64,000 nt of DNA, taken from Hyphococcus sp. (lineage in GTDB: Bacteria; Pseudomonadota; Alphaproteobacteria; Caulobacterales; Parvularculaceae). This document shows, one piece after another, positions 1,341 through 22,470 of the stretch. The stretch is taken from contig JAJFGF010000022.1 of the NCBI GenBank assembly GCA_021776245.1, positions 1 through 64,000 of the forward strand, read 5' to 3'. Both the position numbers and the translations under genes were made by a program. Positions within the stretch are counted from its first letter, which is position 1, and every line of letters starts with the position of its first letter. The notes under the pieces were generated by a model. The model saw only the letters and a list, made by a program, of their open reading frames with translations. It was not told the DNA's origin and did no database searches.

Positions 1341-4300
1341 CTACGAGGCCTTTTTATGGATTATATCCTCGATTGTCTGCTGACTGTGGCGATTCCGATT
1401 TTGTTTTCGCTTGGTTGACGGCCAGGATTCGAGCTCCACTTCCTGCCGTATTTCAGCGCAGACTTCGACGATCCGTTCCAGCGCCTCCTCATCCAGGGCG
1501 CAGTTGACAGACAGGCGCAAAAGCGAACGATTTTGCGGGGTGGCCGGCGAACAGAAGACGGCGCCGAATATGCCTCTCTCTTCTAGCGCGTCTCGCAGTT
1601 TCATGCTGCTGGATTCCGGCCCGGCCTCCAGGGCGATCACTTGTGAGTTGCTGTTGTCGACATTGTATCCAAGTTCGCTCAACTGCCGGCGCAGAAATTT
1701 TGCGTTTTTCCACATCCTGTCCCGACGCCATGATTCTCTTTTTATAACGTTTAACGTCGCAGACAAACCAGCCAATTCATGTTGCAAAAGTGCAGAGCTG
1801 TGTATCATTGACGGCGACTGATTGCGAAAAAAATTCATCACACGCGCTGGTCCGGCGACAAACCCAGCGCGCGTCGCAAATGCCTTCGAGAGGCTCGCAG
1901 TGCGAAAATGGTTTCTGTCGCCGAGATCCAGGCTGGCAATGAGTCCTTCGCCTTTGAGTCCGTATGTGCCCAGTGAATGACTCTCGTCGACTACGGTTAT
2001 GCAGTTAAAGCGTTCTGCAATATCGGTAATTTCCGCCAGTGGGCAAACACTGCCCTCCGCGCTGTAGACGGCATCCACAACAACGATTCCTGGACCAAAA
2101 CGCGCCGCCAGTTTCTCAAAGCTTTGGGGCTTGTTATGCCGGAATGGATGAATCGGCGCGCCCGACGCCCGCGCGCCGTCCCACAGTGATGCGTGAACGG
2201 AGATATCGAGATAGATCGGCGTATCCGCATCGGCGATCAGCCGCAGAAGATCAACATTTGCGCACCATCCGGACTGGCAAAGCACCACGTCTTCAATGTC
2301 CAGGAATTCCGCGATTTCTCCTTCGACCTCTTGAAGATAGGATTCTGGATTCAAGTGCGCTGCCGAGGTCGTTGGCCTTCCATGATTGTCCTGCAGGACG
2401 TTTATCTGAGCACGTACGATTTTTGGATGCCCGGAAAGCGACAGGTAATCATTGCTCCAAAGTTCGATCGCGCCTTCACTGGGCGCTTTGCCGCGCAGAG
2501 GATGGCCATGCTCGACGCGTTCAAGATATTTCCCGACCCGGGCGGACAGGGCAGGGAGTTCTGTGAAGCGGGTTGCTCTACGGAGCACAGCCACGTCACC
2601 CGCCACGTCCTTCGTCGCCCGGTCAAACTGAAGTAGCAAACTGGGCAAAAACAGAAAATCTGCTACCAGCGCAAAAGCAAGTATGATGGCGGTTAACAGG
2701 CCGAGTGTGCCCGTCACCTTAAAGCCTGAGAACGCCAACACAAAAAAGCCGACCACCAACACCAGCGTCGTGACCAGCAGGGCTGTTCCGATCGAGCGGA
2801 AGGCATACAGAATTGCCTCCTGCGGCGCTTTGCCGAGCTCTCGCCTGCCATACAAATATTTGGAAAGAAAGTGGATGGTGTCGTCAACAACGATGCCAAA
2901 GGTCATCGCGCCAACCACCGAAACGGGTACGCCGGCTTCGCCAACGGTAAAACCCCAAAGGCCGAATCCTAAAATTGCCGGCACAAAATTCGGGAAAAGG
3001 CTTGCAATGCCGATCTTCACGCTGCGTAACGCGAAAACAAGGATGCCGGAAATCAAAAACAGAGCAATTGCAGTGCTTGAAACCATTGCCCGGATGTTAT
3101 TTTCTGAAAGGTGGGCGAACATTAGCGAAAGCCCGGAGCCTTGTGTGGCAAGCCCGTCCCTGCTGTTTTTTGCCAGCCATGCATCAATTCGATGAGCCAC
3201 AGGCTGCAATTCTTTCGACGGCAAATTATGTCCGTTATGATTCAAAATTACAGTGACGCGCGTTGCTGAACGATCAACAACAATGCGGTCATTCAGATCA
3301 AGGCCATTTGGCAATGAGAGCTCATATAACAGCAAGTATTGCGCCGCCAATTGACGATTATCGGGAAGACTATACGCGTCGGGACCGCCGCCATTTAGGT
3401 CCCTGTTTAAACGCTTCATAACGTCGCTCAATGACTGAACATTGACGACTTCTGGTTGGCTGCGCAGCCAGTTTGTGAATCGTTCCAGGTGTTGCAAATA
3501 GTCGGGCTCGAATATGCCGTCCTCGCCGCCGCTCGGAATCGAATATTCAAGAATATCAATCCCGGTCAGGTTATTCAGGATAAATTCGGTATCGCCGTTG
3601 AATTCGTAGCGCTCATCGAAATAACCGACCCAATCGTCGTTCAATTCGATGCGCGAAATGCCGGTCGCTAAAACGCCCATTACCGCCAGCATTGACCAGA
3701 AAACTGATCTGCGGTTCGACACCACAAAACTACCAAGCCATATTACGAGTTTCTGACCGTGTATTCGTCTTTTCGGCTTATTGATTTTCATGATCGCCAA
3801 AAAGGCGGGCAGGAACGTGAATGAGAGCACAAAAGCAACGCTAACGCCGCCAGCGACAATGTTGCCTAAGTCATGAAATGGCGGTGCGTCACTGCCATTC
3901 ATGCTGAGAAACCCGATGACGCTGGTCACGCTGGTAAGCGCTACAGGAGAAAGATTGAATTCCAACGAATTGCCAATGGCTTCATTCTTGGACCATCCCA
4001 ATCCGAAATCACTCAGAAATTTGGTGACAAGATGTACGCCATAGGCAAGCGCCATGGTCAATATTATGAGCGGCGCTGACGAAGATCCGGCATTGATGAC
4101 CACACCCAACCAACCCGCTACGCCCATTGCAACTGCCGAAGACATGATTGCGAGCAGCATTATTGACGCGACGCCCGCGAACGAACGAACCAACAATGTC
4201 ATAAGAACCACAATGGCGACAAACATCAGCGGAACGAGTGTTCTGAGGTCGCGCTGACTTGCCTCGTCAAAGGCAGACATCAACATGATGTTGCCGGTCA

Positions 4301-4922
4301 TATGAAGGTTGATATCGGTATTTTCCCGCTCGAGTTCAGACCGAAAGCTTCGCAGAGACGAAACGATCTCTCTAATGCCTTCAGGCTCTTTGGATTCAAG
4401 TCGAAAATTTACGGCAATCCCGGCAACCCTGCCGTCGGTTGAGATAAGAAGCCCCGAAAGAGCCGGCTCGGAAAGGGCAATATCGCGAATCCGGGCCGCA
4501 TGTTCGTTGTCTAGCGCAGTCCCTTCGGGCACCAAATCCGCGATGATGAGCTCGTCCCCAATCGACTCGGAGTGTTGGTAGTTTGTAATGGAGTCCACGC
4601 GCGTAGCGTTCGGCGTCAACCAAAGGGACTCCGTTGTCGCGCGGATGAGTTCCAATCGCTCGGGCGTGAATATGTCGCCGGATTTGGGCGCCACAGCGAT
4701 AAGGACATCATTACTTTGCCGATAGGTTGCTTCAAGCGCCTCAAAATATGTCAATTCCGGGTTGGCGGGCCCGAAGAAGACACGGTTGTCGGGCGTAGTG
4801 CGTAATTGCAGAGCCCCGATACCAATTGCCCCACAGATAAGGACACTGGCGATCACGACCGGCCAACGATATTGCAACAGAGCCCTGGTGTATATTTCGA
4901 TTATTTTGTTGAAGGACATCAT
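1341..4922 (-). CDS. MMPL/RND exporter fused to a CqsA-type alpha-hydroxyketone synthase
   Basis: This 1193-residue protein joins two domains. Residues 1-770 are an MMPL/HpnN-like RND permease: a first helix (about 18-38), a periplasmic loop, two blocks of helices (about 228-375 and 612-765) and the proton-relay-like pair D680-D681 in G-I-V-V-D-D-T. Residues 790-1165 form a PLP fold type I synthase like Vibrio CqsA and Legionella LqsA: C-Q-S-G-W-C-A-N, V-V-D-E-S-H-S-L-G (D979, H982), and the Schiff-base K1013 in S-L-S-K-A-F. Known CqsA enzymes condense an acyl-CoA with an amino-acid-derived substrate to give long-chain ketone signals. The exporter half is a paralogue of the protein at 18010-20388, which ends where the synthase begins here. 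It is the last gene of the quorum-sensing operon. Coupling of synthesis to export is inference. Confidence 0.85.
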   Translation of the reverse strand: MMSFNKIIEIYTRALLQYRWPVVIASVLICGAIGIGALQLRTTPDNRVFFGPANPELTYFEALEATYRQSNDVLIAVAPKSGDIFTPERLELIRATTESLWLTPNATRVDSITNYQHSESIGDELIIADLVPEGTALDNEHAARIRDIALSEPALSGLLISTDGRVAGIAVNFRLESKEPEGIREIVSSLRSFRSELERENTDINLHMTGNIMLMSAFDEASQRDLRTLVPLMFVAIVVLMTLLVRSFAGVASIMLLAIMSSAVAMGVAGWLGVVINAGSSSAPLIILTMALAYGVHLVTKFLSDFGLGWSKNEAIGNSLEFNLSPVALTSVTSVIGFLSMNGSDAPPFHDLGNIVAGGVSVAFVLSFTFLPAFLAIMKINKPKRRIHGQKLVIWLGSFVVSNRRSVFWSMLAVMGVLATGISRIELNDDWVGYFDERYEFNGDTEFILNNLTGIDILEYSIPSGGEDGIFEPDYLQHLERFTNWLRSQPEVVNVQSLSDVMKRLNRDLNGGGPDAYSLPDNRQLAAQYLLLYELSLPNGLDLNDRIVVDRSATRVTVILNHNGHNLPSKELQPVAHRIDAWLAKNSRDGLATQGSGLSLMFAHLSENNIRAMVSSTAIALFLISGILVFALRSVKIGIASLFPNFVPAILGFGLWGFTVGEAGVPVSVVGAMTFGIVVDDTIHFLSKYLYGRRELGKAPQEAILYAFRSIGTALLVTTLVLVVGFFVLAFSGFKVTGTLGLLTAIILAFALVADFLFLPSLLLQFDRATKDVAGDVAVLRRATRFTELPALSARVGKYLERVEHGHPLRGKAPSEGAIELWSNDYLSLSGHPKIVRAQINVLQDNHGRPTTSAAHLNPESYLQEVEGEIAEFLDIEDVVLCQSGWCANVDLLRLIADADTPIYLDISVHASLWDGARASGAPIHPFRHNKPQSFEKLAARFGPGIVVVDAVYSAEGSVCPLAEITDIAERFNCITVVDESHSLGTYGLKGEGLIASLDLGDRNHFRTASLSKAFATRAGFVAGPARVMNFFRNQSPSMIHSSALLQHELAGLSATLNVIKRESWRRDRMWKNAKFLRRQLSELGYNVDNSNSQVIALEAGPESSSMKLRDALEERGIFGAVFCSPATPQNRSLLRLSVNCALDEEALERIVEVCAEIRQEVELESWPSTKRKQNRNRHSQQTIEDIIHKKAS

Positions 4923-5033
4923 AATGCCGCGTTCCGCAAATCTGCGCGAAAATGATTCAGGGTAGACACAGCTCTATCCCATGGCCGCGAAAATAGTCCG
5001 ATGTCTGTGTTTAATCCGCGCATCTTTCTCTGT

Positions 5034-6233
5034 TTACGCCCTCTTTACTCTTAGCAGCGCATCACGGACGCGCGTGCATATTGCAACGGCTTGCTGAATG
5101 TCTTCTTCAGTCAAAGAGGAATTCACCAGCAGGCGAACAAAAGAGGCGTGGTCGGAGTTTTCTGGAAACCTAATGACTGTGCCAAGAAGGCCAGCGCGTT
5201 CAAGCGCCGCGCATAACTCGGCGGCATCCGGCGCCGAGCCGGTAAAAATGGGGATTATCTGTGAACCGTCTGGCGACACGTCAAAATCCGAGCCCGCCAG
5301 CTGCGTGCGCAATGATCGGATATTGCCACGCAGGCGCTCGCGTCGCCAATCTTCCTCCTGGATCACGTTCAGCGCTGCGCCGAGGCCGGCGATTTCATAT
5401 TGCAGAACCGCCGAGCTGAATATCGCGGGGCGCGCCTCGTATCGAAAAAAGTCCATAATTCTGGCGGGTCCGGTGACCATGCCGGCGCGCGTCACCAGCG
5501 CCTTCGAAAGGCTGAAGCTCCTGTAGTTGACCTTGTCCGCGAGTCCGAGGGCGGAAACCAATCCTGCGCCCTGGCGTCCATAAATGCCTATCGTATGAGA
5601 CTCGTCGACGACTAATTCGCATTTGTGCTGCACTGCTACGTCGGTCATATCCACAAGCGGGCATGTCACGCCATTTCCCGGATAGGCCGCGGATACGACA
5701 ACAACGCCGACGCCGTGTTGTTTTATCAGCCGCTCAAGATGCCGCGGATCATTGTTTCGAAATGGGTGTACTGCCGCGCCAGTGCTTTGCGCGCCATCCC
5801 ACATCGCGGCATGAGCGAATTGATCCATGTAAACATGAGTGTCCTGATCGGTGATCGCTTGCATCAAGCCGACATTTGCACACCAGCCGGATTGGCATAA
5901 GACTGCATCTTCTGCCCCGAGGAACGCGGCAATCTTTAGTTCAATCGACCGTTGCATTGTGGATTCGCTCAAAAACGCCGCGGACATATAAATATCGTCG
6001 CCGCCGCCTTTCAGAGTGGCGATTTGCGCTTCTGTGATGGCGGGGTGGCCGTGAAGACACAGATAATCATTGGAACCAAGTTCGATGGCGTCAACCGCTG
6101 GTTCAGGATTGCCCTGCGCGCGCTTTTGGCTCGATTGGGTTAGAAATCGCTCGATACTTCTAGTCAATTGCGGCGGCTCGCCCCAATTTGTTTTCGCAGA
6201 TGCAGCGGCGCTATTGTTCGGAATGATACTCAT
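5034..6233 (-). CDS. cqsA: CqsA-type alpha-hydroxyketone autoinducer synthase
   Basis: This 399-residue PLP enzyme of the alpha-oxoamine synthase family most resembles CqsA/LqsA. Visible landmarks are L-G-S-N-D-Y-L-C-L near residue 52, C-Q-S-G-W-C-A-N-V-G near 113, V-V-D-E-S-H (D210, H213) and the PLP lysine K244 in S-L-S-K-A-L. It should act in the cytoplasm, making a CAI-1- or LAI-1-like ketone. Unlike the synthase domain of the downstream fusion, the conserved V-V-V-D-x-V-Y-S stretch reads V-V-V-V-S-A-A-Y-P, which hints at a different substrate or reduced activity. It lies 34 bases after the kinase gene and 111 before the fusion gene, so one operon is likely. Confidence 0.85.
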   Translation of the reverse strand: MSIIPNNSAAASAKTNWGEPPQLTRSIERFLTQSSQKRAQGNPEPAVDAIELGSNDYLCLHGHPAITEAQIATLKGGGDDIYMSAAFLSESTMQRSIELKIAAFLGAEDAVLCQSGWCANVGLMQAITDQDTHVYMDQFAHAAMWDGAQSTGAAVHPFRNNDPRHLERLIKQHGVGVVVVSAAYPGNGVTCPLVDMTDVAVQHKCELVVDESHTIGIYGRQGAGLVSALGLADKVNYRSFSLSKALVTRAGMVTGPARIMDFFRYEARPAIFSSAVLQYEIAGLGAALNVIQEEDWRRERLRGNIRSLRTQLAGSDFDVSPDGSQIIPIFTGSAPDAAELCAALERAGLLGTVIRFPENSDHASFVRLLVNSSLTEEDIQQAVAICTRVRDALLRVKRA

Positions 6234-6267
6234 TTACTATACAATGCCCTGCCCTTATCGCGCCGTC

Positions 6268-7656
6268 CTATGAGTGAATGAAACTTGCCGGAAAAAATAC
6301 GACTGCGGTGGTTCCAACACTTGGCTCACTCTCCAGTCGGAATTCTCCGCCATGAAGTTGAACCAGCGCCTTAACAAGCGGCAGGCCGAGACCGGTCCCC
6401 TCAAAACGGCGGGAAAGTGTGGCGTCTGCCTGGCCGAACGGCGCCAGCGCAATGGGAATGTCTTCGGCCGCCATACCGATGCCGTTATCGCGGACGATCA
6501 GCAAGAAATTCCGGTTAGCGGAGTATTTGATCTGAACCGTGACTTTTCCCCCGAGGGGGGTGAACTTAACAGCATTTGATAATAGATTGGCCAATATCTG
6601 TTTCAGGACCCGACGGTCCATAATTAATTCGTTTGGTCCGTCCGGGGCCTTTATAATACTAAGTGTAACGCCGGCCTTCTCAGCATTATCTCTGACCAGA
6701 TTGAGGGCCGAATTGACTGCCGTATCGACGTTCAGAATTTCCTCATCCAGAGTCATGTCGCCGGTTTCCAGTTTCGACATTTCCAGAATGTCGTTCACAA
6801 TTTCAAGCAGCCGTTTGCCATTGTCGTGGATGTCTCGCACATAACTCAAATATTCGTCATTGCCGATCGGGCCGCAGACCTGGTCCTTCATAATTCCTGA
6901 AAAACCGTTGATTGCGTTCAGCGGCGTGCGAAGTTCGTGACTCATATTGGCAATAAATTCAGATTGAGCCTGTCTGGCTGCCGCAGCAGCATCGGAAGCC
7001 GCGTCGAGTTGAATGCGCAGTTGCGCTTGCGCCGCAAATAAACGTTGCGCGTGACTGGCGAGGACTATCATCCCCGAAGCCAGGATCGTCGCGACAGATA
7101 GCGACATCGCCAACTCAACACCGTGACCGAGCGATACGCCGGCAAGCGCAGTTAACAGTGTTAGAATAATATAAATTATGGCGGCTGGCAGAAATCGGGC
7201 CGCGGACATGGTCACGATGCTGGTCACGGTCGCAATAGCTGCAATAAGCAGCACTGCATGCTGTCCTGATTCGTTTGGCCAGATGAAAAACAGCCCGCTC
7301 GCCCAGATGACGCCCATCAAGCCGGTCGCGCCGGTTGTGGCCAAATTCCATTCCTGCAATTTCACGTCGGTTGGAACAGACTTCGCGACATGCAGGCTCA
7401 GCATCCCGCGCAACAAGGCTGCAATCCAAATGAGCGTTAACCAAAGTCCGGCTTGCAGACCGCTAATTTGGTTCCAGAGGGCGGTGATGATCAGTAGAGA
7501 GACGGCGGGCTCAAGAAAAAGGATTTTTCTGCTTTGCGCTAGCAGGCTTCTGATGCGTTCGAGCCGTTCGTGCGCGTCAAAGCCGGCCGCTGCGCCGAGC
7601 GAGCCAGCGGACGCGTTCAACCCACTTTCGTGCGTATCGTTTGCTGAAACAGTCAT
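6268..7656 (-). CDS. Membrane sensor histidine kinase (canonical, PleC/DivJ-like core)
   Basis: This 462-residue kinase has about six hydrophobic segments between residues 46 and 203, a short coiled coil (205-232), an H-box with His240 in M-S-H-E-L-R-T-P, and a complete HATPase_c domain: N-box I-L-A-N-L-L-S-N-A, G1 box R-D-N-G-I-G-M, and G2 box G-T-G-L-G-L. It should autophosphorylate. No receiver domain is attached. The membrane part does not look like the CqsS sensor, so its stimulus is unknown. Its place between the LolA-like gene and cqsA suggests it works with the CqsS-like protein encoded upstream, whose own ATPase domain is degenerate. Confidence 0.85.
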   Translation of the reverse strand: MTVSANDTHESGLNASAGSLGAAAGFDAHERLERIRSLLAQSRKILFLEPAVSLLIITALWNQISGLQAGLWLTLIWIAALLRGMLSLHVAKSVPTDVKLQEWNLATTGATGLMGVIWASGLFFIWPNESGQHAVLLIAAIATVTSIVTMSAARFLPAAIIYIILTLLTALAGVSLGHGVELAMSLSVATILASGMIVLASHAQRLFAAQAQLRIQLDAASDAAAAARQAQSEFIANMSHELRTPLNAINGFSGIMKDQVCGPIGNDEYLSYVRDIHDNGKRLLEIVNDILEMSKLETGDMTLDEEILNVDTAVNSALNLVRDNAEKAGVTLSIIKAPDGPNELIMDRRVLKQILANLLSNAVKFTPLGGKVTVQIKYSANRNFLLIVRDNGIGMAAEDIPIALAPFGQADATLSRRFEGTGLGLPLVKALVQLHGGEFRLESEPSVGTTAVVFFPASFIHS

Positions 7657-7801
7657 GTTTAAAGCGCAATCGCCTACCGCCGGTTATCGACGGCATTTTA
7701 GCGGATCGCGTTTAATAAAGACCTTACGATTGGAAATATTTGACTAATGGCGTCGCGTGCGGTGTTGGGCCATAGAAACTGGTTAACAAATTCCGACCTG
7801 C

Positions 7802-8623
7802 TTAGCGAAGGCGTTCAAGTTTCCCAATTTGGAACGCGCTGTCGGATAATTCATCTTCAAAACTATAATGTTTCCAGGTCAGCCGCGTGCTTTTGCCATT
7901 CTGCGTGTTCATCATGTGCATCTCAGAAGCGCGCCAGAATTTGCCTTTGTAGCGTTGATAGCCTTTCACGGTCAGCACCTTCAATGGTTCGCCTTTGCGA
8001 TCAAAAAATTCGATCTTGATAATTCTTAGTTCCTCTTTGTCGTACCAGACCAATTGGCGGGAATATCCGGAATTTTTGTAAATCGGCGTTCTTTCGATCA
8101 CATGTGCAGCCGACCCGTCGATATTTTCATCACGAAGCCAACGGCAACTATATTTCTCGATTTCCGGCCAAACCATGTCTTCATACGCGAATTCGCTGCC
8201 GACAAAGGGGCCAGATCTGTTCGTTGCGCTAATACGCTTGACCCGTTTCAGCGCCGGCAGATAGATCCATTGATCATCATTCTCCGACTTATGCGAGAAT
8301 GTCAGCAGCGCCGTTCCATCGACGTCACGCGGGCGATTAAAAACCATTAGACTTTTGTCGCCGTCATTTGCGACCTCAAGGACACTGACGCGAAAATGAC
8401 GGCGACTTTCCGTCCCGTTCTGATTGGTCAGGATCATCTCGACCTCAGCCGAAAAGTCATTAAACCCTGCATCGCGCTCCGCAGCTTCCTTGGCTATCAT
8501 TTGTCCGCGGTCCAACTGCGCGCCCGAGACTAAGTCATTTGCCTGAACGCCAGATCCATGAGCGGCGAAAGCCAACAAAAGGATGCGCGAGATGAATTTA
8601 CTCCAACCAGCAAGTTTTTTCAT
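7802..8623 (-). CDS. LolA-like periplasmic protein (outer-membrane lipoprotein-sorting family)
   Basis: This 273-residue protein has a signal peptide (about residues 1-28, ending near G-V-Q-A) and a LolA/LolB-like lipid-binding fold. Family signatures are D-K-S-L-M-V-F-N-R-P-R-D-V-D-G-T-A-L-L and W-I-Y-L-P-A-L-K-R-V-K-R-I, followed by G-P-F-V-G-S-E-F-A-Y-E-D. Proteins of this type are usually encoded beside MMPL exporters and are thought to carry lipids across the periplasm. It is clearly paralogous to the protein at 20357-21217. In this operon it would be the periplasmic partner of the MMPL-CqsA fusion, an inference from gene context. A GAGAAAG precedes the chosen ATG. Confidence 0.8.
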   Translation of the reverse strand: MKKLAGWSKFISRILLLAFAAHGSGVQANDLVSGAQLDRGQMIAKEAAERDAGFNDFSAEVEMILTNQNGTESRRHFRVSVLEVANDGDKSLMVFNRPRDVDGTALLTFSHKSENDDQWIYLPALKRVKRISATNRSGPFVGSEFAYEDMVWPEIEKYSCRWLRDENIDGSAAHVIERTPIYKNSGYSRQLVWYDKEELRIIKIEFFDRKGEPLKVLTVKGYQRYKGKFWRASEMHMMNTQNGKSTRLTWKHYSFEDELSDSAFQIGKLERLR

Positions 8624-8731
8624 ATTATCGACTTTCTCACTAACAATCGCATATGCGCTTTAGTCCTATCCGTACATTCAGGCCAAGCTGGCGGAGTCGC
8701 CGTGTCATCGCAGGCATCACTACAATTGCCA

Positions 8732-10078
8732 TTATTCCGCCGCCATCGACGCGACAGGCGACGGCAGACTTATTACAATCTCAGTGTGCTCACCGCGAAC
8801 GGCTTCAATAGCCAAGGCGCCTGAAAAGGCCTCAACCGCGCGTCTGACAAATTCCAGCGCGGGGCCTGTTCCGCTTTCGGAATCAAGCACCGAGGACCCA
8901 TCAAAGAAATGTGAATAGTTGCGGTTGATGGGCTTTCCGCCGCCAATAATAAGGAAGCGAAGCTGGTTTTGTTGCGACATTTTTGTCAGCTCCAGAAGCA
9001 CTTCGCCTTTACCTTGTTTGTCGCGGGAAATTAAAAGTGTTTTCAGCAGCGACAGGATTACGTATATCATTGCGCTTTCTGATCCGTAGAACGTGAAATC
9101 AGAAGTCAGCTGAACTTTTACAAGCTTGCGTTCTTTTTCAGACTTGAATGGATAGCGTTTGAGCGCTCTTTTTACACATTCAGCCATCGAAACCACGTTG
9201 AACTCCGCTGGGTCAATGGGCACGCCGCCTGAGTTGCGCAGGAGCATCTCAACGACCGTATTTGCATGCACCGTCTCTTCTTGTAAGCGGACAAGGCTAT
9301 GGCGCAGAGCGCTACGGTGAGCTGGTGGAATTTCCCCCACCGGCAATCCGCCTTCTTCAGCTAATTCATATGTCTGAAGCAGCAATGGCAAATACTGCGC
9401 GAGGCTCATCGCACTGGTTCTAATCCCTAAGAGAGGCGATCTGAGTTCATGTGACAAATTTCGACCAGCCGTCCGCATGGCGTCCAGGCGCTCCTGCTTC
9501 AACATTTCACTGCGATAGCTGAATATCGTGCCGACTATCAAAACGAAAATAACAATCGGCATCAACTGCAAGTAGACTGAAGGATCGCTGACTGCGCCGC
9601 CAGTCGCAGCAAAAACGGTCCAGGCGAGCAACATGCCGAGCATCGAAAGAAATATCAGGTTTAGCCAGTCGACCAGAAATACAAGCAAAAGCAGCGCTGC
9701 AATAAAAGACGCCAGCCATACAGCGGAAAAATCGTTCTTCAACGTCATGAACGTAAAAAAGAACGGCAGCACGTAGAGGACTGTTGCATACCAGAATATG
9801 GGAGCGAATTTCTGCAGTTTTTCCGACCAAAAATCCTTGAGCAGAAACGGCAGACACATCCCGGCCCCGATAAGACGCATGGTCAGGTTCTCATAGGGCT
9901 GCGGAAAAATATCGTGCCAAATGAAATAATAGAGCGGCATGCCCACAGCGCCGCAAACGCTGATCGCAATCAGATTGCGCTCGACGAGATGGTAACTTCG
10001 CCCGACGATTTGCATCAGTTGCGATCGCGCAACGTCCTTCGACCGCGGGCTAGCGATATTTGGTCCGGTCAATTCCAT
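8732..10078 (-). CDS. CqsS-like quorum-sensing sensor with degenerate ATPase domain
   Basis: This 448-residue protein has six hydrophobic segments (about 34-190) closely resembling the Vibrio CqsS sensor: Y-Y-F-I-W ... F-P-Q-x-Y-E-N-L, and L-P-F-F-F-T-F-M-x-L-x-N-D. An H-box follows with His210 in L-S-H-E-L-R-S-P. The ATP-binding part is eroded. The N-box reads I-L-S-L-L-K-T-L without Asn, the G1 box reads I-I-G-G-G-K-P without Asp, and G2 survives only as S-G-T-G-P-A-L. No receiver domain is present, unlike hybrid CqsS. It probably binds the ketone signal, but may not autophosphorylate. It is the first gene of the operon. A start at 10015 is possible, since the ribosome site is weak. Confidence 0.85.
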   Translation of the reverse strand: MELTGPNIASPRSKDVARSQLMQIVGRSYHLVERNLIAISVCGAVGMPLYYFIWHDIFPQPYENLTMRLIGAGMCLPFLLKDFWSEKLQKFAPIFWYATVLYVLPFFFTFMTLKNDFSAVWLASFIAALLLLVFLVDWLNLIFLSMLGMLLAWTVFAATGGAVSDPSVYLQLMPIVIFVLIVGTIFSYRSEMLKQERLDAMRTAGRNLSHELRSPLLGIRTSAMSLAQYLPLLLQTYELAEEGGLPVGEIPPAHRSALRHSLVRLQEETVHANTVVEMLLRNSGGVPIDPAEFNVVSMAECVKRALKRYPFKSEKERKLVKVQLTSDFTFYGSESAMIYVILSLLKTLLISRDKQGKGEVLLELTKMSQQNQLRFLIIGGGKPINRNYSHFFDGSSVLDSESGTGPALEFVRRAVEAFSGALAIEAVRGEHTEIVISLPSPVASMAAE

Positions 10079-10080
10079 CG

Positions 10081-10104
10081 ATTATGCTCATTTTGACGCA
10101 TAAT
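10081..10104. promoter_or_regulatory. Inverted repeat just upstream of the quorum-sensing operon
   Basis: Perfect arms ATTATGC (10081-10087) and GCATAAT (10098-10104) are separated by 10 bases, only 2 bases before the start codon of the CqsS-like gene on the minus strand. It could be an operator or an mRNA hairpin over the ribosome-binding region. The binding factor is unknown. Confidence 0.35.
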
Positions 10105-10184
10105 ACTGCGGTCGCCGTTAACATATTGATAACGAATTCAATTGGAGGCTGGTCCAGTAACTGCTTTATATAAGAGGTGCACGG

Positions 10185-10355
10185 ATGAAGATTGTCACGC
10201 AGCCATTTCGCGTTGAACCGCCGTTCGCGGGCAATGATAAATATCTGCCGCATGCAATTGAAGCATGCAGAGAGATTGCCTCAGTTCTGCAAAATGAGGT
10301 GACGCAATTGTTCTTCAGGCGTCTATTCCGCGTTGGATCATATAGTCGTTTGTAA
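10185..10355 (+). CDS. Possible 56-residue protein of unknown function
   Basis: An ATG at 10185 opens a 56-codon frame that runs divergently from the quorum-sensing operon and overlaps the last 41 bases of the convergent FAD oxidoreductase gene. A GAGGTG lies 6-11 bases upstream. A TATATA at about 10168-10173 could belong to a promoter. The peptide starts M-K-I-V-T-Q-P-F-R-V and has no motif that I recognise. It may be a truncated gene or a chance frame. Confidence 0.25.
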   Translation: MKIVTQPFRVEPPFAGNDKYLPHAIEACREIASVLQNEVTQLFFRRLFRVGSYSRL

Positions 10356-11886
10356 ATAATGCGCGATCACCCGGGTCCGGCAGAAGTTGGTGGCGCGCAT
10401 CAGTCCAGGCCGTCAAGTCGGCGCCATAGGCATTTTGCACGCGTGCCGGCGTATATCCGTTGGTCTTGCCCCAATGCTGTGTGAACGGAATGCCCGCTTG
10501 CTCCATCTTTTGCGGAATTTGATCAAAGAATTGCAGTGTCGTATTATTAAAAATGCCGTCAATGCTGACGACAAATGTGGTGTCGAATCGATTCATGGCG
10601 AGCAGCGCCGGAGATTTCTTCACATAGCGACAACCAAAGACAACCGGCGTCGGACCGATCGCATTGTTGATGCCAATCAACTGATCAAGTGTTTCCAGAG
10701 CACGATTAAGCGGCACCGCGACCGTGCCTGAGGCGACTTTCGTACGCGGCGTTTTGTAGCCGAACATTTCACCCCAACTGCCAGTGCGCGAGTTCGTGTC
10801 AAACAGCGCGGCAATTGCAATCTGTGCAAAAAGCGGTACGCCATCCTGATATATGTCAAGCAACTGTCCAATTACTGACAGGAAATCAAAACCGGGTCCG
10901 AACTTCGACGCCGCCATGTTGTAGTCAGGTTGATAACCGGTGGTCCACGGCTTTTCGTACATCAACGTCACCAGCACTTCCGGCGGGTTTGAATTGGGAT
11001 CGATAATTGGCTGGAAAAAATAAGGCTGCAGCCCGGTTGCCGATTGCAAAGCAGGGTGACCGTCAAAATCCAGCGTTTCAATGACATTGCGCATGGCCGC
11101 GTCGAGAGTCAGTTTGGCGCCAGTCCCGTCGCTGTCAATATTTACGGACTCAAGCAGAAATCGCGGACGTGTTTCAATTATCACATTGTGGATGATGCCG
11201 AAGGCGCCCAACCCAACCACGACCGCATTAAAAAGAGCGTCATCGCGGATGACGGCGGCCCCGAGAGCCGCAGCCAGCGATGGTTTGAGCACAGGGTAAG
11301 AGGCGCGCTCCAGCCAAAACTGATTACTGTCACCCGCCAAAAGGTGAATGGCCACAATTTGGTCGTGCAATGCGCTGACACCAAGGGCCGAGCCGTGAGT
11401 GCCTGTTGCGGTGGCGCCGACGATCGTTTGCCCGTTGGCGGCGCCTGAAGTCGGCAAAGATCTTTCGAAGCGATCACTTTCGATCATGCGATTGATCTCC
11501 GAAATATAGGCGCCGGCCTGGATCAGCCACAGTCCTTCGCGCGCATCGGCGTCGCCGGGATAGGCTGGGTCAAGTTGGTTCTGGCGTATCGGCTTCATGC
11601 CGCTCAGACGTGACACGTCAATAAGCGCCCCGTTCGTCGCGGGAACGTCTGATAATGACCAGCCGCGGCCGACCGCGCGCGCTGTAATGCCGCTGACTTT
11701 AGCTTCGGTCAGCGCGCGCTGAATTTGGTGTGTACACCGATTTATTGTGTCAGCGCCATAGCGCGGCAGATCCGCGGGATACCAGACATTGTAGACGCCC
11801 TTGATCGGCGCCGTAAGTGTTTCATGGAAGTTTTTCCACGGCACTGCCTGTGGAATCCAATCCAGCATTGCATCGTCATTGGGCAT
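10315..11886 (-). CDS. FAD-binding oxidoreductase (PCMH / sugar-lactone oxidase type)
   Basis: This 523-residue flavoprotein is of the vanillyl-alcohol-oxidase/PCMH type. The N-terminal FAD domain shows R-A-V-G-R-G-W-S-L-S near residue 70, S-G-A-A-N-G-Q-T-I-V-G-A-T-A-T-G-T-H-G near 150 and a G-L-G-A-F-G-I-I segment near 225. The C-terminal half resembles D-arabinono-lactone or cholesterol oxidase substrate domains only loosely. There is no obvious signal peptide. The substrate cannot be named. It follows the small lipoprotein gene by 12 bases, so the two are probably co-transcribed. A wholly different flavin-dependent dehydrogenase function is possible. Confidence 0.75.
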   Translation of the reverse strand: MPNDDAMLDWIPQAVPWKNFHETLTAPIKGVYNVWYPADLPRYGADTINRCTHQIQRALTEAKVSGITARAVGRGWSLSDVPATNGALIDVSRLSGMKPIRQNQLDPAYPGDADAREGLWLIQAGAYISEINRMIESDRFERSLPTSGAANGQTIVGATATGTHGSALGVSALHDQIVAIHLLAGDSNQFWLERASYPVLKPSLAAALGAAVIRDDALFNAVVVGLGAFGIIHNVIIETRPRFLLESVNIDSDGTGAKLTLDAAMRNVIETLDFDGHPALQSATGLQPYFFQPIIDPNSNPPEVLVTLMYEKPWTTGYQPDYNMAASKFGPGFDFLSVIGQLLDIYQDGVPLFAQIAIAALFDTNSRTGSWGEMFGYKTPRTKVASGTVAVPLNRALETLDQLIGINNAIGPTPVVFGCRYVKKSPALLAMNRFDTTFVVSIDGIFNNTTLQFFDQIPQKMEQAGIPFTQHWGKTNGYTPARVQNAYGADLTAWTDARHQLLPDPGDRALFTNDYMIQRGIDA

Positions 11887-17250: not shown

Positions 17251-17294
17251 TTGTGTTTTCAGAATTGGTGTTCTAAATCCAGAACGCGCATTCT
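17251..17294 (+). promoter_or_regulatory. Tandem TetR-type operators and promoter of the tetR-MMPL operon
   Basis: Two half-symmetric 14-mers, AGAATTGGTGTTCT (17261-17274) and AGAACGCGCATTCT (17281-17294), share the form AGAA-N6-TTCT and are 20 bases apart, two helical turns. Together they also form a larger palindrome (TTTCAGAAT ... ATTCTGAAA). A possible -35 TTGTGT (17251-17256) and -10 TAAATC (17274-17279), 17 bases apart, overlap the first site. The tetR start codon follows at 17311. Confidence 0.6.
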
Positions 17295-17310
17295 GAAATG
17301 GCCTAAAACA

Positions 17311-17937
17311 ATGCCGCGACCCGAAATGGATTTGAGTCCTGCGATTTCAGCCGCAAAGGAAGTTTTCTGGCGGCTGGGATATGAGGATGCGTCGATCGAA
17401 GAGGTTGTGCAGGCAACCGGCCTTAATCGATATGCTTTGTATAATGCCTTTGGCGGTAAGCTGGAGATCTTCCTTGCTGCGCTCGAAGCCTATCAAAAAG
17501 AACGTAAAGATCTTTTTTTGCGCGTGCTCAGCGATCCCGAACGCAGCCCTATTGACGCTATTCAGGAAGTTTCAGATTTCTGCATTGGGCAAATGGCTGA
17601 TCGCAATGCGGGTTGTCTCATCTGCAATATTGCGCTTGAGGTCGGTCATCAAAACAAAATCATAGCATATCGCGTCAACGCCTATTTGGAAGAGATCAGG
17701 GGCGCTGAAGAAATTGCGCTGACACAGGCTGCGGAACGCGGCGAGTTAAATCCGGCTATTACGCCGAAAGACGGCGCTGCGCTTCTTGTCGCGAATATGC
17801 TTGGCGTTGGCGCGCTCGCGCGCAACGGCGCTAGTCGCGCCGAAATGCTCAACGTATTCAATACGGTCATCGCGGCGTTGAAACATCCCGATGCAAATCG
17901 CCAAGGCAAAGTCATTCGTCGAACTTCGTTGAATTGA
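17311..17937 (+). CDS. TetR/AcrR-family transcriptional regulator
   Basis: This 208-residue repressor has an N-terminal helix-turn-helix (A-S-I-E-E-V-V-Q-A-T-G-L-N-R-Y-A-L-Y-N-A-F-G-G-K, about residues 27-50) and an all-helical ligand domain with C-L-I-C-N near residue 95. The start at 17311 is chosen because it keeps the usual length before the HTH and leaves the tandem operators upstream. It is followed by the MMPL exporter, LolA-like and outer-membrane protein genes on the same strand, which it most likely controls. The inducer is unknown. Confidence 0.85.
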   Translation: MPRPEMDLSPAISAAKEVFWRLGYEDASIEEVVQATGLNRYALYNAFGGKLEIFLAALEAYQKERKDLFLRVLSDPERSPIDAIQEVSDFCIGQMADRNAGCLICNIALEVGHQNKIIAYRVNAYLEEIRGAEEIALTQAAERGELNPAITPKDGAALLVANMLGVGALARNGASRAEMLNVFNTVIAALKHPDANRQGKVIRRTSLN

Positions 17938-18009
17938 GACGTCTATAGTGTCGCTGCAGGTTAAGCGGCAAATGAATACCGGCAACGCGCCGTGATGAGG
18001 AGTATTCTA

Positions 18010-20388
18010 ATGGCAAGAGCAATGAATATGCTGGACGTCTTTTCGACCGCACTGGCGCGAACAATGGTAAGCCTGCGCTGGTTGGTGATTATTGTCGCTA
18101 TCGCCGGCTCGGTCGCGATCGGAACGCAGGCGTCAAAATTAGAGTTTTCGAACAACTACCGAACGTTTTTCTCGAAACAGAATCCGGAGCTTCAGGCGTT
18201 TGAAGAATTTCAGGCGACATACACCAAGAATGACAATCTTCTTTTCGTGCTGGTTCCAAAAGATGAAGGCGGCGTCTTTACGAACGATACGCTTGCCGCC
18301 GTTGAATATCTAACTGAACGCGGCTGGCAGGTGCCTTTTGCGCTGCGCGTCGATTCCATCAGTAATTTTTCGCATACCTATGCCACAGAAGACGATCTGA
18401 TCGTTGAGGACCTTGTCGTTGACGCGCGCAGTCTTTCATCTGAGGAACTTGCGGACAAACGCGACATCGCGCTTGGTGAACCGCTTTTGCGTGATCAGCT
18501 GGTTACATCAGATGGCGGCGCAACCGCGGTCAACGTCGTCCTTCAATATCCGGAAATCTCGCTTTCCGAAGTGCCTGAAGCGGTCACCTATGCGCGGGCG
18601 TTAAAGGCGGAGATCGTTGAGAAATTTCCGCATCTCGATGTACACCTGACCGGCACGTCGATGTTGAACAATGCTTTTTCGGAAGCCAGCATTAATGATT
18701 TTGGTTTTCTGGTGCCGATTATGTTCGTAATCATATTGATCACAACGGCAATCGCGGTGCGTTCAGTGACGGCGACTTTGGCGACTCTCCTGATCATCAT
18801 TCTCTCGTCAATGATCGCCATGGGATTTGCCGGCTATATCGGCATCAAGCTCGCAGGCCCAAGTCCCAGCGCACCGATCATAATCCTGACTTTGGCGATT
18901 GCTGATTCAGTCCACATATTAATCGCTATGCGTTCGGCGATGCGCGACGGTCTTGAAAAAATTGCCGCAATCATTGAAGCGATCCGTATTAACTTTCTTG
19001 CGGTTGCAGTCACGTCGATCACTACAGTCGTCGGCTTCCTGTCGCTGCGATTTTCCGATTCGCCGCCATTTCAGGACCTCGGAACGATAACCGCGATAGG
19101 CATTTTCGCCGCCTTTATCCTGTCGGTTACACTCTTGCCGGCTTTGTTAAGCCTCGCGCCGATCCGCGTAAAACCGCGCGCGGTCGGGCAAACCCGCGGC
19201 GGGCTGATGCTTGGGTTTGCCAATTTTGTGATCGATAATCCGCGGTTTTTTCTGATTGCGACGGGATTCGCAACGGCGGCGCTGATAGCGTTCATTCCAA
19301 CGCTTAATCTCAGCGACCAATGGCGTGAATATTTTGCGCCGCGCATAGAATTTCGCGCGGAGACAGATAAGGCGATTGAGCATTTCGGTTTCTATCCGAT
19401 CGAATGGTCGGTGCCCGCCGGCGAAACGGGCGGAATCAGCAATCCGGAGTTTTTGGCAAAACTTGACGATTATACCGAGTGGCTGCGGGCGCAGCCTAAT
19501 GTCGTGCATGTTTATTCCTTCACCGATATTATGAAGCGGCTCAACAAAAATCTGAATGCGGACGACCCGGCATTTTATCGGTTGCCCGACGACCGCGATC
19601 TCGCCGCGCAATATCTGCTTCTTTACGAGATGTCTTTGCCTTTCGGACTTGATCTCAATGACAGGATTAATATTGACAAATCTGCGACCCGTGTGACGGC
19701 GACACTTGAGGGCTATGTCACCACCAAGCGCGTGCGTGAGTTTCTGAAGCAATCGACTGTATGGTTTGAAGAAAATGCGCCGGAATTGAAAGCGCCACCC
19801 ACTGGCGCCCAGGTAATGTTCACGTTCATTGCCCAGCGCAATGTCGAGAGCATGATTGGTGGTACAAGTTTTGCGATGATCGCCATCGCTGTCGTCATGA
19901 TCCTTGCTTTGCGCAGTATTCGGATGGGGCTGATCAGTCTTGTTCCTAATGCAATGCCTATTCTTGCCGCATTTGGCGCGTGGGCGATTTTGTTCGGAGA
20001 AATCGGATTTTCGGTTGCCGCTATTGCCGCCATTTCTATCGGCATCGTCATTGACGATACCGTGCATTTTTTGACGAAATTCATGCGTGCGCGCCGCGAG
20101 AAAGGGCTCTCATGCGCGGATTCCATTCGTTACGCATTTGAAACCGTCGGCGTTGCGATCATTGTCAATACGGTGATCCTCGGCGCGGGCTTTTCGGTGC
20201 TGACATTATCGGCCTTCAAGATCAATATGGAGATGGGTCTTCTCACGGCGATGACGATTGGTTTTGCACTCATTCTTGATTTTCTATTCCTGCCGGCGTT
20301 GCTCTTAACATTAGCGCGATTTTCCGGTGAAAAGATTGATGATAAAGGAGACAATTATGTCCGTCATACATTCAGTCAAACCGCTTAG
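18010..20388 (+). CDS. MMPL/RND-family lipid exporter
   Basis: This 792-residue permease has a first helix near residue 20, a periplasmic domain, and two helix blocks (about 225-380 and 610-770) separated by a second periplasmic domain. The second block holds S-I-G-I-V-I-D-D-T-V-H-F, the Asp pair expected for proton coupling. The family (HpnN, MmpL) moves lipids or other hydrophobic compounds out of the inner membrane. The start at 18010 has GAGGAG upstream. It shares long stretches with the exporter half at 1341-4922, for example L-A-A-Q-Y-L-L-L-Y-E and G-L-D-L-N-D-R-I, but carries no synthase domain. Confidence 0.85.
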   Translation: MARAMNMLDVFSTALARTMVSLRWLVIIVAIAGSVAIGTQASKLEFSNNYRTFFSKQNPELQAFEEFQATYTKNDNLLFVLVPKDEGGVFTNDTLAAVEYLTERGWQVPFALRVDSISNFSHTYATEDDLIVEDLVVDARSLSSEELADKRDIALGEPLLRDQLVTSDGGATAVNVVLQYPEISLSEVPEAVTYARALKAEIVEKFPHLDVHLTGTSMLNNAFSEASINDFGFLVPIMFVIILITTAIAVRSVTATLATLLIIILSSMIAMGFAGYIGIKLAGPSPSAPIIILTLAIADSVHILIAMRSAMRDGLEKIAAIIEAIRINFLAVAVTSITTVVGFLSLRFSDSPPFQDLGTITAIGIFAAFILSVTLLPALLSLAPIRVKPRAVGQTRGGLMLGFANFVIDNPRFFLIATGFATAALIAFIPTLNLSDQWREYFAPRIEFRAETDKAIEHFGFYPIEWSVPAGETGGISNPEFLAKLDDYTEWLRAQPNVVHVYSFTDIMKRLNKNLNADDPAFYRLPDDRDLAAQYLLLYEMSLPFGLDLNDRINIDKSATRVTATLEGYVTTKRVREFLKQSTVWFEENAPELKAPPTGAQVMFTFIAQRNVESMIGGTSFAMIAIAVVMILALRSIRMGLISLVPNAMPILAAFGAWAILFGEIGFSVAAIAAISIGIVIDDTVHFLTKFMRARREKGLSCADSIRYAFETVGVAIIVNTVILGAGFSVLTLSAFKINMEMGLLTAMTIGFALILDFLFLPALLLTLARFSGEKIDDKGDNYVRHTFSQTA

Positions 20389-21217
20389 GGCGGCGCTGGC
20401 TGCTGTCCTGATCAATGCTTCGGCTTTTTCTTTTGGCGCATTGGCGCAAAGTGCGCCGGTGTTTGAAGCCGACCCGGCTGCAAAAGGCGATACGCCGGAA
20501 TCTCAAATGGGTTATGAAATCGCTGCGCGGAGCGATCGCACCGACGCCGGTTTTGGCGACAGCAAAGTCGACGCCACTATGATGTTGCGCAACGCCGCCG
20601 GCCAGACATCCGAACGCAGCCTTTCTTTTTCAACGCTTGAAAAGGAAGACGAGACTGTTGGCGATAAATCGCTGGTGATTTTCAATTCGCCGCGCGATGT
20701 TGAGGGAACGGCGCTATTGTCTCATGCAAATATTCTCGATCCCGATGATCAGTGGCTTTATCTTCCGGCGCTTAAGCGTGTGAAGCGGATTTCTTCTGCA
20801 AACAAATCCGGCCCCTTTGTCGGATCGGAGTTTGCATTCGAAGATTTTACCCTAACAGAGCTCAACAAATTCACATATGCCTATGTGGGCGAAGAAGAAC
20901 TCGACGGCATGATGATGGATGTGGTTGAACGTTTTCCGCGCTATGAAAAATCGGGGTACACGAAGCAAAAATCATGGATTGACCAGACAGCGTTTCAGGC
21001 GCGAAAACTTGAGTTTTATGATCGTCGCGGCGAGCTCTTAAAAACGCTGACGCTGTCGGACTATCGCGAATATAATGGTGTCTGGCGCGCCCACAGGCTT
21101 TCGATGGTCAATCACAGAACCAATAAGGAAACCGATCTTGTCTATAGTAATTTCCAATTCAAGACCGGCCTTGATAAAAACGATTTCCAGCAAGGCATAT
21201 TAACGCGGTTGCGTTAG
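20357..21217 (+). CDS. LolA-like periplasmic protein (outer-membrane lipoprotein-sorting family)
   Basis: This 286-residue protein has a signal peptide ending near G-A-L-A-Q-S (about residue 31), then the same family signatures as the protein at 7802-8623: N-S-P-R-D-V-E-G-T-A-L-L, W-L-Y-L-P-A-L-K-R-V-K-R-I and K-S-G-P-F-V-G-S-E-F-A. The ATG at 20357 has AAAGGAG upstream and overlaps the end of the exporter gene by 32 bases, which points to coupled translation. It should shuttle the exporter's lipid-like substrate across the periplasm. The cargo is unknown. Confidence 0.8.
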   Translation: MSVIHSVKPLRAALAAVLINASAFSFGALAQSAPVFEADPAAKGDTPESQMGYEIAARSDRTDAGFGDSKVDATMMLRNAAGQTSERSLSFSTLEKEDETVGDKSLVIFNSPRDVEGTALLSHANILDPDDQWLYLPALKRVKRISSANKSGPFVGSEFAFEDFTLTELNKFTYAYVGEEELDGMMMDVVERFPRYEKSGYTKQKSWIDQTAFQARKLEFYDRRGELLKTLTLSDYREYNGVWRAHRLSMVNHRTNKETDLVYSNFQFKTGLDKNDFQQGILTRLR

Positions 21218-21225
21218 ACGCTGTG

Positions 21226-22470
21226 ATGTATATGCGGGGTGCAGTGAAAGTTCTTGTGCTGTCATTTCTAGCGGCTGCCATTGGAATCTTGCCGGCGGCG
21301 GCGGGAGAGTGGGAATTTGACGCAGAATTGTCAGGCGACGTCAGGTATTTTCCGGACGATGCTATGTTTTCCGGTCAGCTGAATGACTGGCAGCCCTCGC
21401 TGGCGTTTACGCCTGAGCTTCGCTGGGAGACTGACGACCGCAAGCACCAACTCGTATTCATCCCATTCTTTCGCCTTGATGCGAAGGACGATGAGCGCAC
21501 GCATGTGGATTTAAGGGAAGGCTATTATCGGTTTAATTCCGATCATAATTGGTCTTTGACGGTCGGCGCCGCGAAAGTATTCTGGGGGCGAACGGAATCG
21601 CGTCACCTCGTGGATATCATCAATCAGACAGATGGCGTTGAGGATATTGACGAGGAGGACAAGCTTGGCCAGCCGATGCTAAACCTTACAGTCTTAAATG
21701 ACTGGGGAACGCTTGACTTTTTTGTCATGTCCGGCTTTCGCGACCGAACATTTCCCGGTGTCGAAGGCCGCCTTCGGTTTGGGCAGATCGTCGATACGGA
21801 TAATGCGATATTTGAACGCGGCGCCCGGCGCGGGGCTGTCGATTATGCGGCGCGCTATTCACATTACATCGGCAATTGGGATTTCGGCGTTTCAATTTTC
21901 CACGGCACTTCAAGAGAGCCGCGCTTTGCAATCGCCCCCGGTGGAATGAATTTGCAGCCGGTTTATGATAAAATCACGCAAGGGGCGATCGACCTGCAAT
22001 ACACAAAAGACGCCTGGCTCTGGAAAGTCGAAGCCATTGTCCGCGAAGGTCATGGCGACACGTTTTTCGCGAGCGTCGCGGGATTTGAATACACGCTTTA
22101 TCAGATATTCGGGGCCAGTGCGGATCTGGGGCTTTTGGCGGAGTATCAATATGACGGCCGCGACGAAGGCTTTGTTGCTGAAAGTTTCGGTCTTGCTTCA
22201 GCGGCCCCGGTTGCTGTCGGTAATAATGACGTTTTTGCCGGCGCGCGTCTTGGCTTTAATGACGCCCAGGATGCGTCCGCGCTTGTCGGCATATCCGTTG
22301 ATGCTGACGATCAGACCATGGGCATGTTCATCGAAGCCGAGCGCCGGATTGGTCAGAACTGGACCGCGGAGCTTGAAACACGGCTTTTTTTCAATGTCGA
22401 TCCCTCAAATGTCGCTAATGCGTTCCGCGATGATGACGTTGTGACGCTGCGGCTGACGCGTTACTTTTGA
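21226..22470 (+). CDS. Outer-membrane beta-barrel protein of an MMPL export cassette
   Basis: This protein of about 414 residues has a signal peptide (hydrophobic to about 25, A-A-A-G cleavage) and many alternating-hydrophobicity strands, with a C-terminal L-R-L-T-R-Y-F that ends in Phe as barrel proteins do. It resembles the uncharacterised barrels (DUF1302-like in style) found with MMPL and LolA-like genes. It follows the LolA-like gene by 8 bases and could be the outer-membrane exit or acceptor. The quorum-sensing cassette has no such gene. The start is uncertain (21223, 21226 or 21232). Confidence 0.6.
   Translation: MYMRGAVKVLVLSFLAAAIGILPAAAGEWEFDAELSGDVRYFPDDAMFSGQLNDWQPSLAFTPELRWETDDRKHQLVFIPFFRLDAKDDERTHVDLREGYYRFNSDHNWSLTVGAAKVFWGRTESRHLVDIINQTDGVEDIDEEDKLGQPMLNLTVLNDWGTLDFFVMSGFRDRTFPGVEGRLRFGQIVDTDNAIFERGARRGAVDYAARYSHYIGNWDFGVSIFHGTSREPRFAIAPGGMNLQPVYDKITQGAIDLQYTKDAWLWKVEAIVREGHGDTFFASVAGFEYTLYQIFGASADLGLLAEYQYDGRDEGFVAESFGLASAAPVAVGNNDVFAGARLGFNDAQDASALVGISVDADDQTMGMFIEAERRIGQNWTAELETRLFFNVDPSNVANAFRDDDVVTLRLTRYF

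Follow-up and report, generated by a model that had tools for sequence, protein, structure and literature searches.

An in-frame fusion of an MMPL-family pump and a CqsA/LqsA-type synthase, conserved in nine genomes, as a candidate for coupled synthesis and export of an alpha-hydroxyketone signal

We analyzed a 64,000-nucleotide stretch of the Hyphococcus sp. contig JAJFGF010000022.1 (positions 1 to 64,000; hereafter, the window), in which one reading frame encodes an MMPL/RND-family permease joined to an autoinducer synthase of the alpha-hydroxyketone (AHK) type. A preliminary description of this locus had reported a single intact 1193-codon frame. The frame, which lies on the minus strand, indeed runs from an ATG start to a TAG stop with zero internal stops, and is divided as follows.

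1341..4922, minus strand: fused MMPL permease and AHK-type synthase, 1193 amino acids (reading frame, Pfam, NCBIfam)
2628..4922, minus strand: MMPL/RND half, residues 1-765
2553..2627, minus strand: joint, residues ~766-790, near-constant in length, weakly conserved in sequence, and modeled with low confidence
1344..2552, minus strand: CqsA/LqsA-type synthase half, residues from ~791

Pfam placed MMPL (PF03176, E 7e-37) on two stretches of the fused protein and Aminotran_1_2 (PF00155, E 4e-37) on residues 819-1153. No in-frame ATG able to start a separate synthase was found in residues 759-848 of the window's fusion; GTG and TTG codons are present there, the best of them with four of six matches to AGGAGG. 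The window thus has neither a stop codon nor an ATG around the joint, and the idea of two genes mistaken for one was rejected. Comparing the window with the same fusion in a Marinicaulis genome (locus L076) gave non-synonymous and synonymous substitution rates (dN and dS) of 0.113 and 1.47 for the pump, 0.095 and 0.77 for the joint, and 0.118 and 1.46 for the synthase, i.e. a dN/dS of ~0.08 in each half and of 0.12 in the joint. The final 23 residues of the fusion are unconserved (dN 0.68, dS saturated). Both the pump half and the synthase half are under purifying selection.

The preliminary description had proposed looking elsewhere for proteins with both domains, and eight further genomes were found to carry the same fusion, with lengths of 1187-1215 amino acids and identities of 46-81%. 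Besides Marinicaulis (L076), these are labeled Rhodospirillaceae (L077-L079), Proteobacteria (L080), and Alphaproteobacteria (L081, L082, and L084). A scan of species genomes by synthase similarity, in which the best 80 of 154 confirmed stretches yielded 77 distinct loci, returned eight fused loci, the five closest included, and 69 unfused ones; a search for relatives carrying pump and synthase here as two genes found none. Genome samples of the order, class, phylum, and genus, which overlap, held the synthase family above its cut-off in 2/200, 8/385, 16/398, and 2/28 genomes, respectively. Fused frames of 1207-1210 codons occurred in three sampled genomes: the window's, G194, and G477. The latter two are the genomes of L076 and L079 met in a second sample, and the total, including the window, is nine fusions. 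In the phylum sample (398 genomes), 18 genomes had a strong synthase match, one of them (G789) in a locus cut by a contig end, and the synthase was fused in the window's genome only. A close pump was present in 43 genomes of a class sample of 289 and was fused only in the window's genome and in G477.

A quick tree of 71 MMPLs, whose root was not inferred, placed all nine fused pump halves on one side of a branch (SH-aLRT, a likelihood-ratio branch support, of 100), with unfused alphaproteobacterial pumps adjoining this clade; this grouping, in an unrooted tree, disfavors separate fusion events. Collectively, these results confirmed the fusion as real and conserved across nine genomes. A viral origin was also considered, and none of the 25 viral-contig stretches that matched a search pattern encoded a relative. 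The fusion is apparently undescribed: in the material found by searching the literature on CqsA, AHK, or autoinducer synthases together with MMPL, RND, or exporter, no such fusion was reported.

A related MMPL gene lay in the flank (up to 10 kb per side, 19 of the 69 loci being shorter than 20 kb) of only five unfused loci, all five MMPLs falling in one clade, and was missing from the flank of the other 64. The preliminary description had suggested that this pump may be the dedicated exporter that the signal class still lacked; because most of the fetched synthase loci are unfused (69/77) and their flanks mostly lack a related pump (64/69), that claim is unsupported. The five exceptions (L092, L094, L100, L102, and L103) are gammaproteobacterial synthase-sensor loci; the MMPL gene in them is a distant one and diverges from the sensor, and in the three that were inspected we noted, by eye, a receiver-like frame. 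We considered these five as a possible two-gene stage and set them aside, their MMPLs being far from the fused clade and divergent from the sensor.

By family model, tree, and residues, the fused enzyme falls inside the AHK synthases and is predicted to be of the CqsA/LqsA kind. The fused half scored 477.5 bits against the NCBIfam equivalog NF005526 ('alpha-hydroxyketone-type quorum-sensing autoinducer synthase'; cut-off 428), and its closest solved structure is Vibrio cholerae CqsA (E 6e-85; the next kind, 2e-41). As first claimed, the half is a complete CqsA-type synthase with K1013, D979, and H982; these residues and H910 are invariant in 9/9 fusions, and aligned with K236, D202, H205, and H133 of V. 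cholerae CqsA. In a synthase tree of 68 rows, the nine fused chains and nine chains of a second synthase described below (SYN2) formed one clade (99/95) within the AHK synthases, and four further alpha-oxoamine synthases from the window's genome split off as the outgroup (100/100). The AHK-type synthases around this clade belong to Nitrococcus, Polaromonas, Janthinobacterium, Cupriavidus, and others; homologues of lqsA/lqsS have been listed for Nitrococcus mobilis and Polaromonas in a review (PMC3376566).

The tree and the counts of residue conservation below used the same 46 reference synthases, 26 from the 69 unfused loci and 20 from genome searches. The 26 loci are what was left of 36 chosen for spread once L122, L104, and eight near-copies had been removed, and the references still include one identical pair (L117 and L038) and one nearly identical pair (L131 and L039). 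L122 (9395-11182) holds a deltaproteobacterial AHK-type synthase in a 595-aa frame, with an N-terminus possibly longer than in its relatives. The acyl pocket of CqsA comprises nine residues according to a published list (PMC3285556); the window's fused half has the usual residue at 6/9 of these positions and is changed at F79, F257, and F264 (H856, N1034, and H1041 here).

The other half was first described as a complete MMPL permease with the acidic pair D680-D681, and this was borne out, PF03176 matching in both halves of the pump and the pair, which lies in the second of them, being invariant in 9/9 fusions. Such an acidic pair underlies the proton drive in the RND superfamily. The pump matched neither of two named subfamilies at membership level, scoring 154.1 bits against TIGR00921 (HAE3; cut-off 351.9) and 107.7 bits against TIGR03480 (the hopanoid exporter HpnN; cut-off 751.85). 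A weak structural model has 12 helices and two large extracytoplasmic domains, and in this model, with helix ends set by hand, the positive charges of the short loops lie on the side that holds both ends of the pump. RND proteins usually have both ends in the cytoplasm, where acyl-CoA, the amino donor, and pyridoxal phosphate (PLP) are found. Since twelve predicted helices would place both ends on the same side, and given this usual topology, we expect the synthase to sit on the cytoplasmic side and the direction of pumping to be outward.

Directly upstream of the fusion lies a block of genes on the same strand. The preliminary description, correct about the frame, had mentioned neither the strand nor three of these genes (SYN2, the LolA-like carrier, and the sensor).

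5034..6233, minus strand: SYN2, a free AHK-synthase paralogue of 399 amino acids, 111 bases upstream of the fusion
6268..7656, minus strand: histidine kinase (HisKA and HATPase_c), 462 amino acids; best NCBIfam match DivJ, 207 bits, far under the cut-off of 1000
7802..8623, minus strand: LolA_like (PF17131), 200.7 bits against a cut-off of 30
8732..10078, minus strand: CqsS/LqsS-type sensor, by similarity to the sensor beside the Nitrococcus synthase

We take the LolA_like product to be a periplasmic carrier, as is usual for its family. The sensor had zero Pfam matches at E 0.001 and a weak LuxN match (32 bits), but over 414 residues it shares 42% identity, and the motif YYFIWHD-FPQPYEN, with the sensor adjoining the synthase of Nitrococcus mobilis Nb-231. 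In CqsS, the residues that read CAI-1 are given as W104, S107, F160/F162/F166, and C170 in the review cited above (PMC3376566). Across the nine fused loci, window included, LolA_like was present in 8/9, a CqsS/LqsS-type sensor in 8/9, and a predicted outer-membrane beta-barrel gene in 6/9, being absent from the blocks of the window, L076, and L079. As a control, the 69 unfused loci had LolA_like in 0/69, the barrel in 0/69, and a sensor in 60/69. In the genus sample, sensor and synthase occurred in the same 2/28 genomes. A second kinase is present in five fused loci (the window, L076, L077, L078, and L080), and genes beyond the block are unrelated between loci, except one common to L081 and L082. 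Pfam found no receiver domain of the kind that an LqsR-type regulator would carry in the six proteins scanned at window positions 1341-11886.

Variation among the sensors was also noted. That of L082 is a hybrid with receiver and Hpt domains, and L081 (13372-15269) has a hybrid sensor in two overlapping frames, possibly through a frameshift. L083, L085, L097, and L098 have an AHK-type synthase beside an LqsS-like sensor frame (569-584 aa, 112-124 bits); these assemblies are labeled Candidatus Neomarinimicrobiota, outside the Proteobacteria, and may contain binning errors.

The window contains a second, unfused set of export genes, outside the fused block.

17992..20388, plus strand: free-standing MMPL paralogue that shares 39-41% identity with the pump half
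20327..21217, plus strand: LolA_like of the unfused triad
21223..22470, plus strand: predicted outer-membrane beta-barrel of the unfused triad, with a homologue inside the fused block in 6/9 loci

This set, together with a TetR-like gene, spans 17251-22470, ~7 kb from the fused block, and is followed within 400 bases by genes that appear, by eye, to encode ribosomal proteins and RNA polymerase. Besides window 17992-22470, synthase-free pumps stood beside LolA_like and barrel genes in three of six stretches (L211, L212, and L216, not L213-L215). The barrel protein had no Pfam match; a model of the window's copy (pLDDT, a per-residue confidence score, 70.9) takes a beta-barrel form, and the solved folds closest to it are those of AlgE and porins, at modest TM-scores of ~0.4-0.6.

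SYN2 is found directly upstream of the fusion in 9/9 loci, and the two genes touch or overlap, counted from the first possible start codon, in L077, L078, L079, L081, and L082. The window's SYN2 scored 397.2 bits against NF005526, under the cut-off of 428, and constraint on SYN2 is weaker, with dN/dS values of 0.11-0.16 compared with 0.07-0.11 for the fused synthase. We noted that the two chains have lost different residues. S912, D950, S954, and F1123 are kept in 9/9 fused chains and lost in 5/9 SYN2 chains; P1038 and F/Y at 856 are kept in 9/9 SYN2 chains and lost in 5/9 fused ones; and both sets of losses occur in the same five pairs (the window and L076-L079). None of the 46 references varies at S912, S954, or F1123; at position 950, 43 of them have D and the other 3 have E; and P1038 and F/Y at 856 are each kept in 45/46. 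F1041, present in 46/46 references, is lost in two fused chains (the window and L076). S912 is the Ser of a His-Ala-Ser motif, called strictly conserved in the family in a review, and it is lost in the window's SYN2.

The published CqsA pocket splits between the window's two chains as well: F79, F257, and F264 are changed in the fused chain, and H30, V32, C346, and A349 in SYN2, which has the usual residue at 5/9 positions. Positions 257 and 30 count for little, since among the 46 references 257 is variable and 30 is unfixed. Judging from related structures, F79, I263, and F264 of CqsA are presumably supplied by the partner chain. Because the losses are divided between the fused chain and SYN2, they suggest that, in the branch holding the window, the two chains form a heterodimer with one composite site, the working site lying on the fused chain. 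Active sites at a dimer interface, with residues from both chains, are described for serine palmitoyltransferase, a related enzyme, in a 2018 review (PMC6148460). In L081, L082, and L084, fused and free synthases group together rather than by type, the L084 pair being sisters (100/98), a pattern that we read as probable gene conversion.

Taken together, we consider the most likely role of the fused protein, with a probability of roughly 60%, to be the making of an AHK signal coupled to its export across the envelope. The fused synthase would make a hydrophobic ketone, carrying a hydroxy or an amino group, on the inner side of the membrane; the pump domain would take up this ketone and release it into the periplasm; the LolA-like carrier and the barrel would assist its further passage out of the cell; and neighboring cells would read it through the CqsS/LqsS-type sensor. 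In the window's branch, the fused chain might pair with SYN2, contributing the PLP site while SYN2 contributes the partner-subunit loops, in which case a tether to the pump would be needed on just one of the two chains. That synthesis and export are coupled had already been proposed. The physical coupling stands, in a conserved frame beside an AHK-type sensor; the direction and the substrate of the pump are those that we infer.

A more ambitious version can be put forward tentatively, with the odds somewhat against it: a single machine that makes a quorum-sensing ketone, exports it, and carries it across the whole envelope, in which the synthase works only as a fused-SYN2 heterodimer with a composite site and hands its product to its own MMPL, carrier, and barrel. 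Several observations weigh against one part or another of the main reading or of this version. The PLP lysine, Asp, His, and stacking His are kept in 18/18 chains, and SYN2 may therefore be active alone. Four pairs (L080, L081, L082, and L084) show no split losses, and the five pairs that do show them form one clade and may therefore reflect one event. Twelve conserved positions are lost only in the window's fused chain, of which three (852, 1038, and 1041) are in the presumed partner loops and nine outside them; two positions are lost in both window chains, where chance would give about 14 x 17 / 93 = 2.6. For reference, stand-alone synthases left out singly lose a median of 2 and a maximum of 6 of the 93 conserved positions. 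In one genome (L079/G477), the fusion and SYN2 occur with no sensor match genome-wide, and the 44-kb contig has neither carrier nor barrel; this argues against a fixed partnership. The window's own block has no barrel. The joint is looser in other comparisons (dN/dS ~0.3 for L077-L078 and 0.19 for L077-L079, with dS saturated for L081-L082), in keeping with a linker. Lastly, the full-length structure prediction is weak (pLDDT 59.8; pTM, a global confidence score, 0.41); its top fold matches are CqsA and MmpL4, and it is too weak for judging the joint.

We weighed four other explanations. The strongest, which we nevertheless regard as unlikely, is that the pump acts inward or on other cargo, either supplying the synthase with a precursor (a lipid or a fatty-acyl compound) or moving a membrane lipid, and that the ketone leaves by diffusion or in vesicles. 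In its favor, MMPLs carry many lipids, and 64 of the 69 unfused loci have no related MMPL in the flank. LAI-1 has also been reported in outer membrane vesicles in a 2023 paper (PMC10692735). On the other side, the LolA-like and barrel genes, which among the synthase loci fetched accompany only the fused ones, are what one would expect of outward transport. The synthase family, moreover, draws on acyl-CoA from the cytoplasm.

It is improbable, in our view, that the fused enzyme is an alpha-oxoamine synthase with another product, perhaps an aminoketone lipid with a long chain, which the pump would insert into the envelope. In favor are the export of structural lipids by many MMPLs and the three changed acyl-pocket positions of the window's fused half (H856, N1034, and H1041), but the enzyme passes the AHK equivalog cut-off, is nested among AHK synthases, and has a CqsS/LqsS-type sensor in 8/9 blocks. 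We give slightly less credence still to a pump domain that serves mainly as a membrane anchor or scaffold, keeping the synthase near the sensor or the acyl-CoA supply: synthase and sensor do share one block and the pump has no assigned substrate, yet the Asp pair and many other pump residues are invariant in 9/9 fusions, and the pump half is constrained as strongly as the synthase half. Finally, a missed stop or a misassembly joining neighboring genes can be dismissed, for although the eight other fusions all come from metagenome assemblies, nine assemblies share an open frame, a near-constant joint length, a single pump clade, and purifying selection on both halves.

How AHK signals exit the cell is a matter on which there is little direct evidence; the 2023 paper calls the release of LAI-1 not known, reporting outer membrane vesicles and leaving other routes open (PMC10692735). 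If coupled synthesis and export is the true role of the fusion, and if the two chains do pair, the locus would provide a dedicated export route for an AHK signal and a heterodimeric AHK synthase. To our knowledge, neither has been described. A natural synthase-pump fusion makes direct AHK export testable in one gene, and its LolA-like and barrel partners hint at how a signal could cross the remaining envelope layers. The split active site known from serine palmitoyltransferase might, in the paired synthases, have a bacterial model.

Four known systems bear comparison. CqsA (V. cholerae; PDB 2wk8/3hqt) and LqsA resemble the fused half in family model, catalytic residues, fold match, and the CqsS/LqsS-type sensor nearby. 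However, CqsA is a separate protein in the PDB, whereas in the fusion the enzyme forms the C-terminal half of a pump protein, and the second synthase copy upstream in 9/9 fused loci is unlike the CqsA/LqsA systems. The known synthases of the CqsA family are free homodimers, according to the 2018 review (PMC6148460). The eukaryotic serine palmitoyltransferase SPT1/SPT2 resembles the proposed pair in having two unlike alpha-oxoamine-synthase chains at a shared membrane site; this two-chain arrangement, thought to share one active site, is called unique in the family in that review (PMC6148460). It differs from our locus in that the pairing here is one that we infer, the PLP lysine is kept in both chains, and the membrane part is a transporter. 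MMPL-type RND permeases and the triads of MMPL, LolA_like, and barrel genes share with the fused block the MMPL repeats, the Asp pair, and, in 8/9 and 6/9 fused loci, respectively, the LolA_like and barrel partners, but, unlike the fusion, they are unfused and have no synthase. In Pseudomonas, the RND pumps MexAB-OprM and MexGHI-OpmD have been linked to the export of acyl-homoserine lactone or quinolone signals. Similar to the fusion, they are RND pumps proposed to move hydrophobic quorum-sensing signals; unlike it, they are general pumps, encoded by separate genes, and serve other signal classes.

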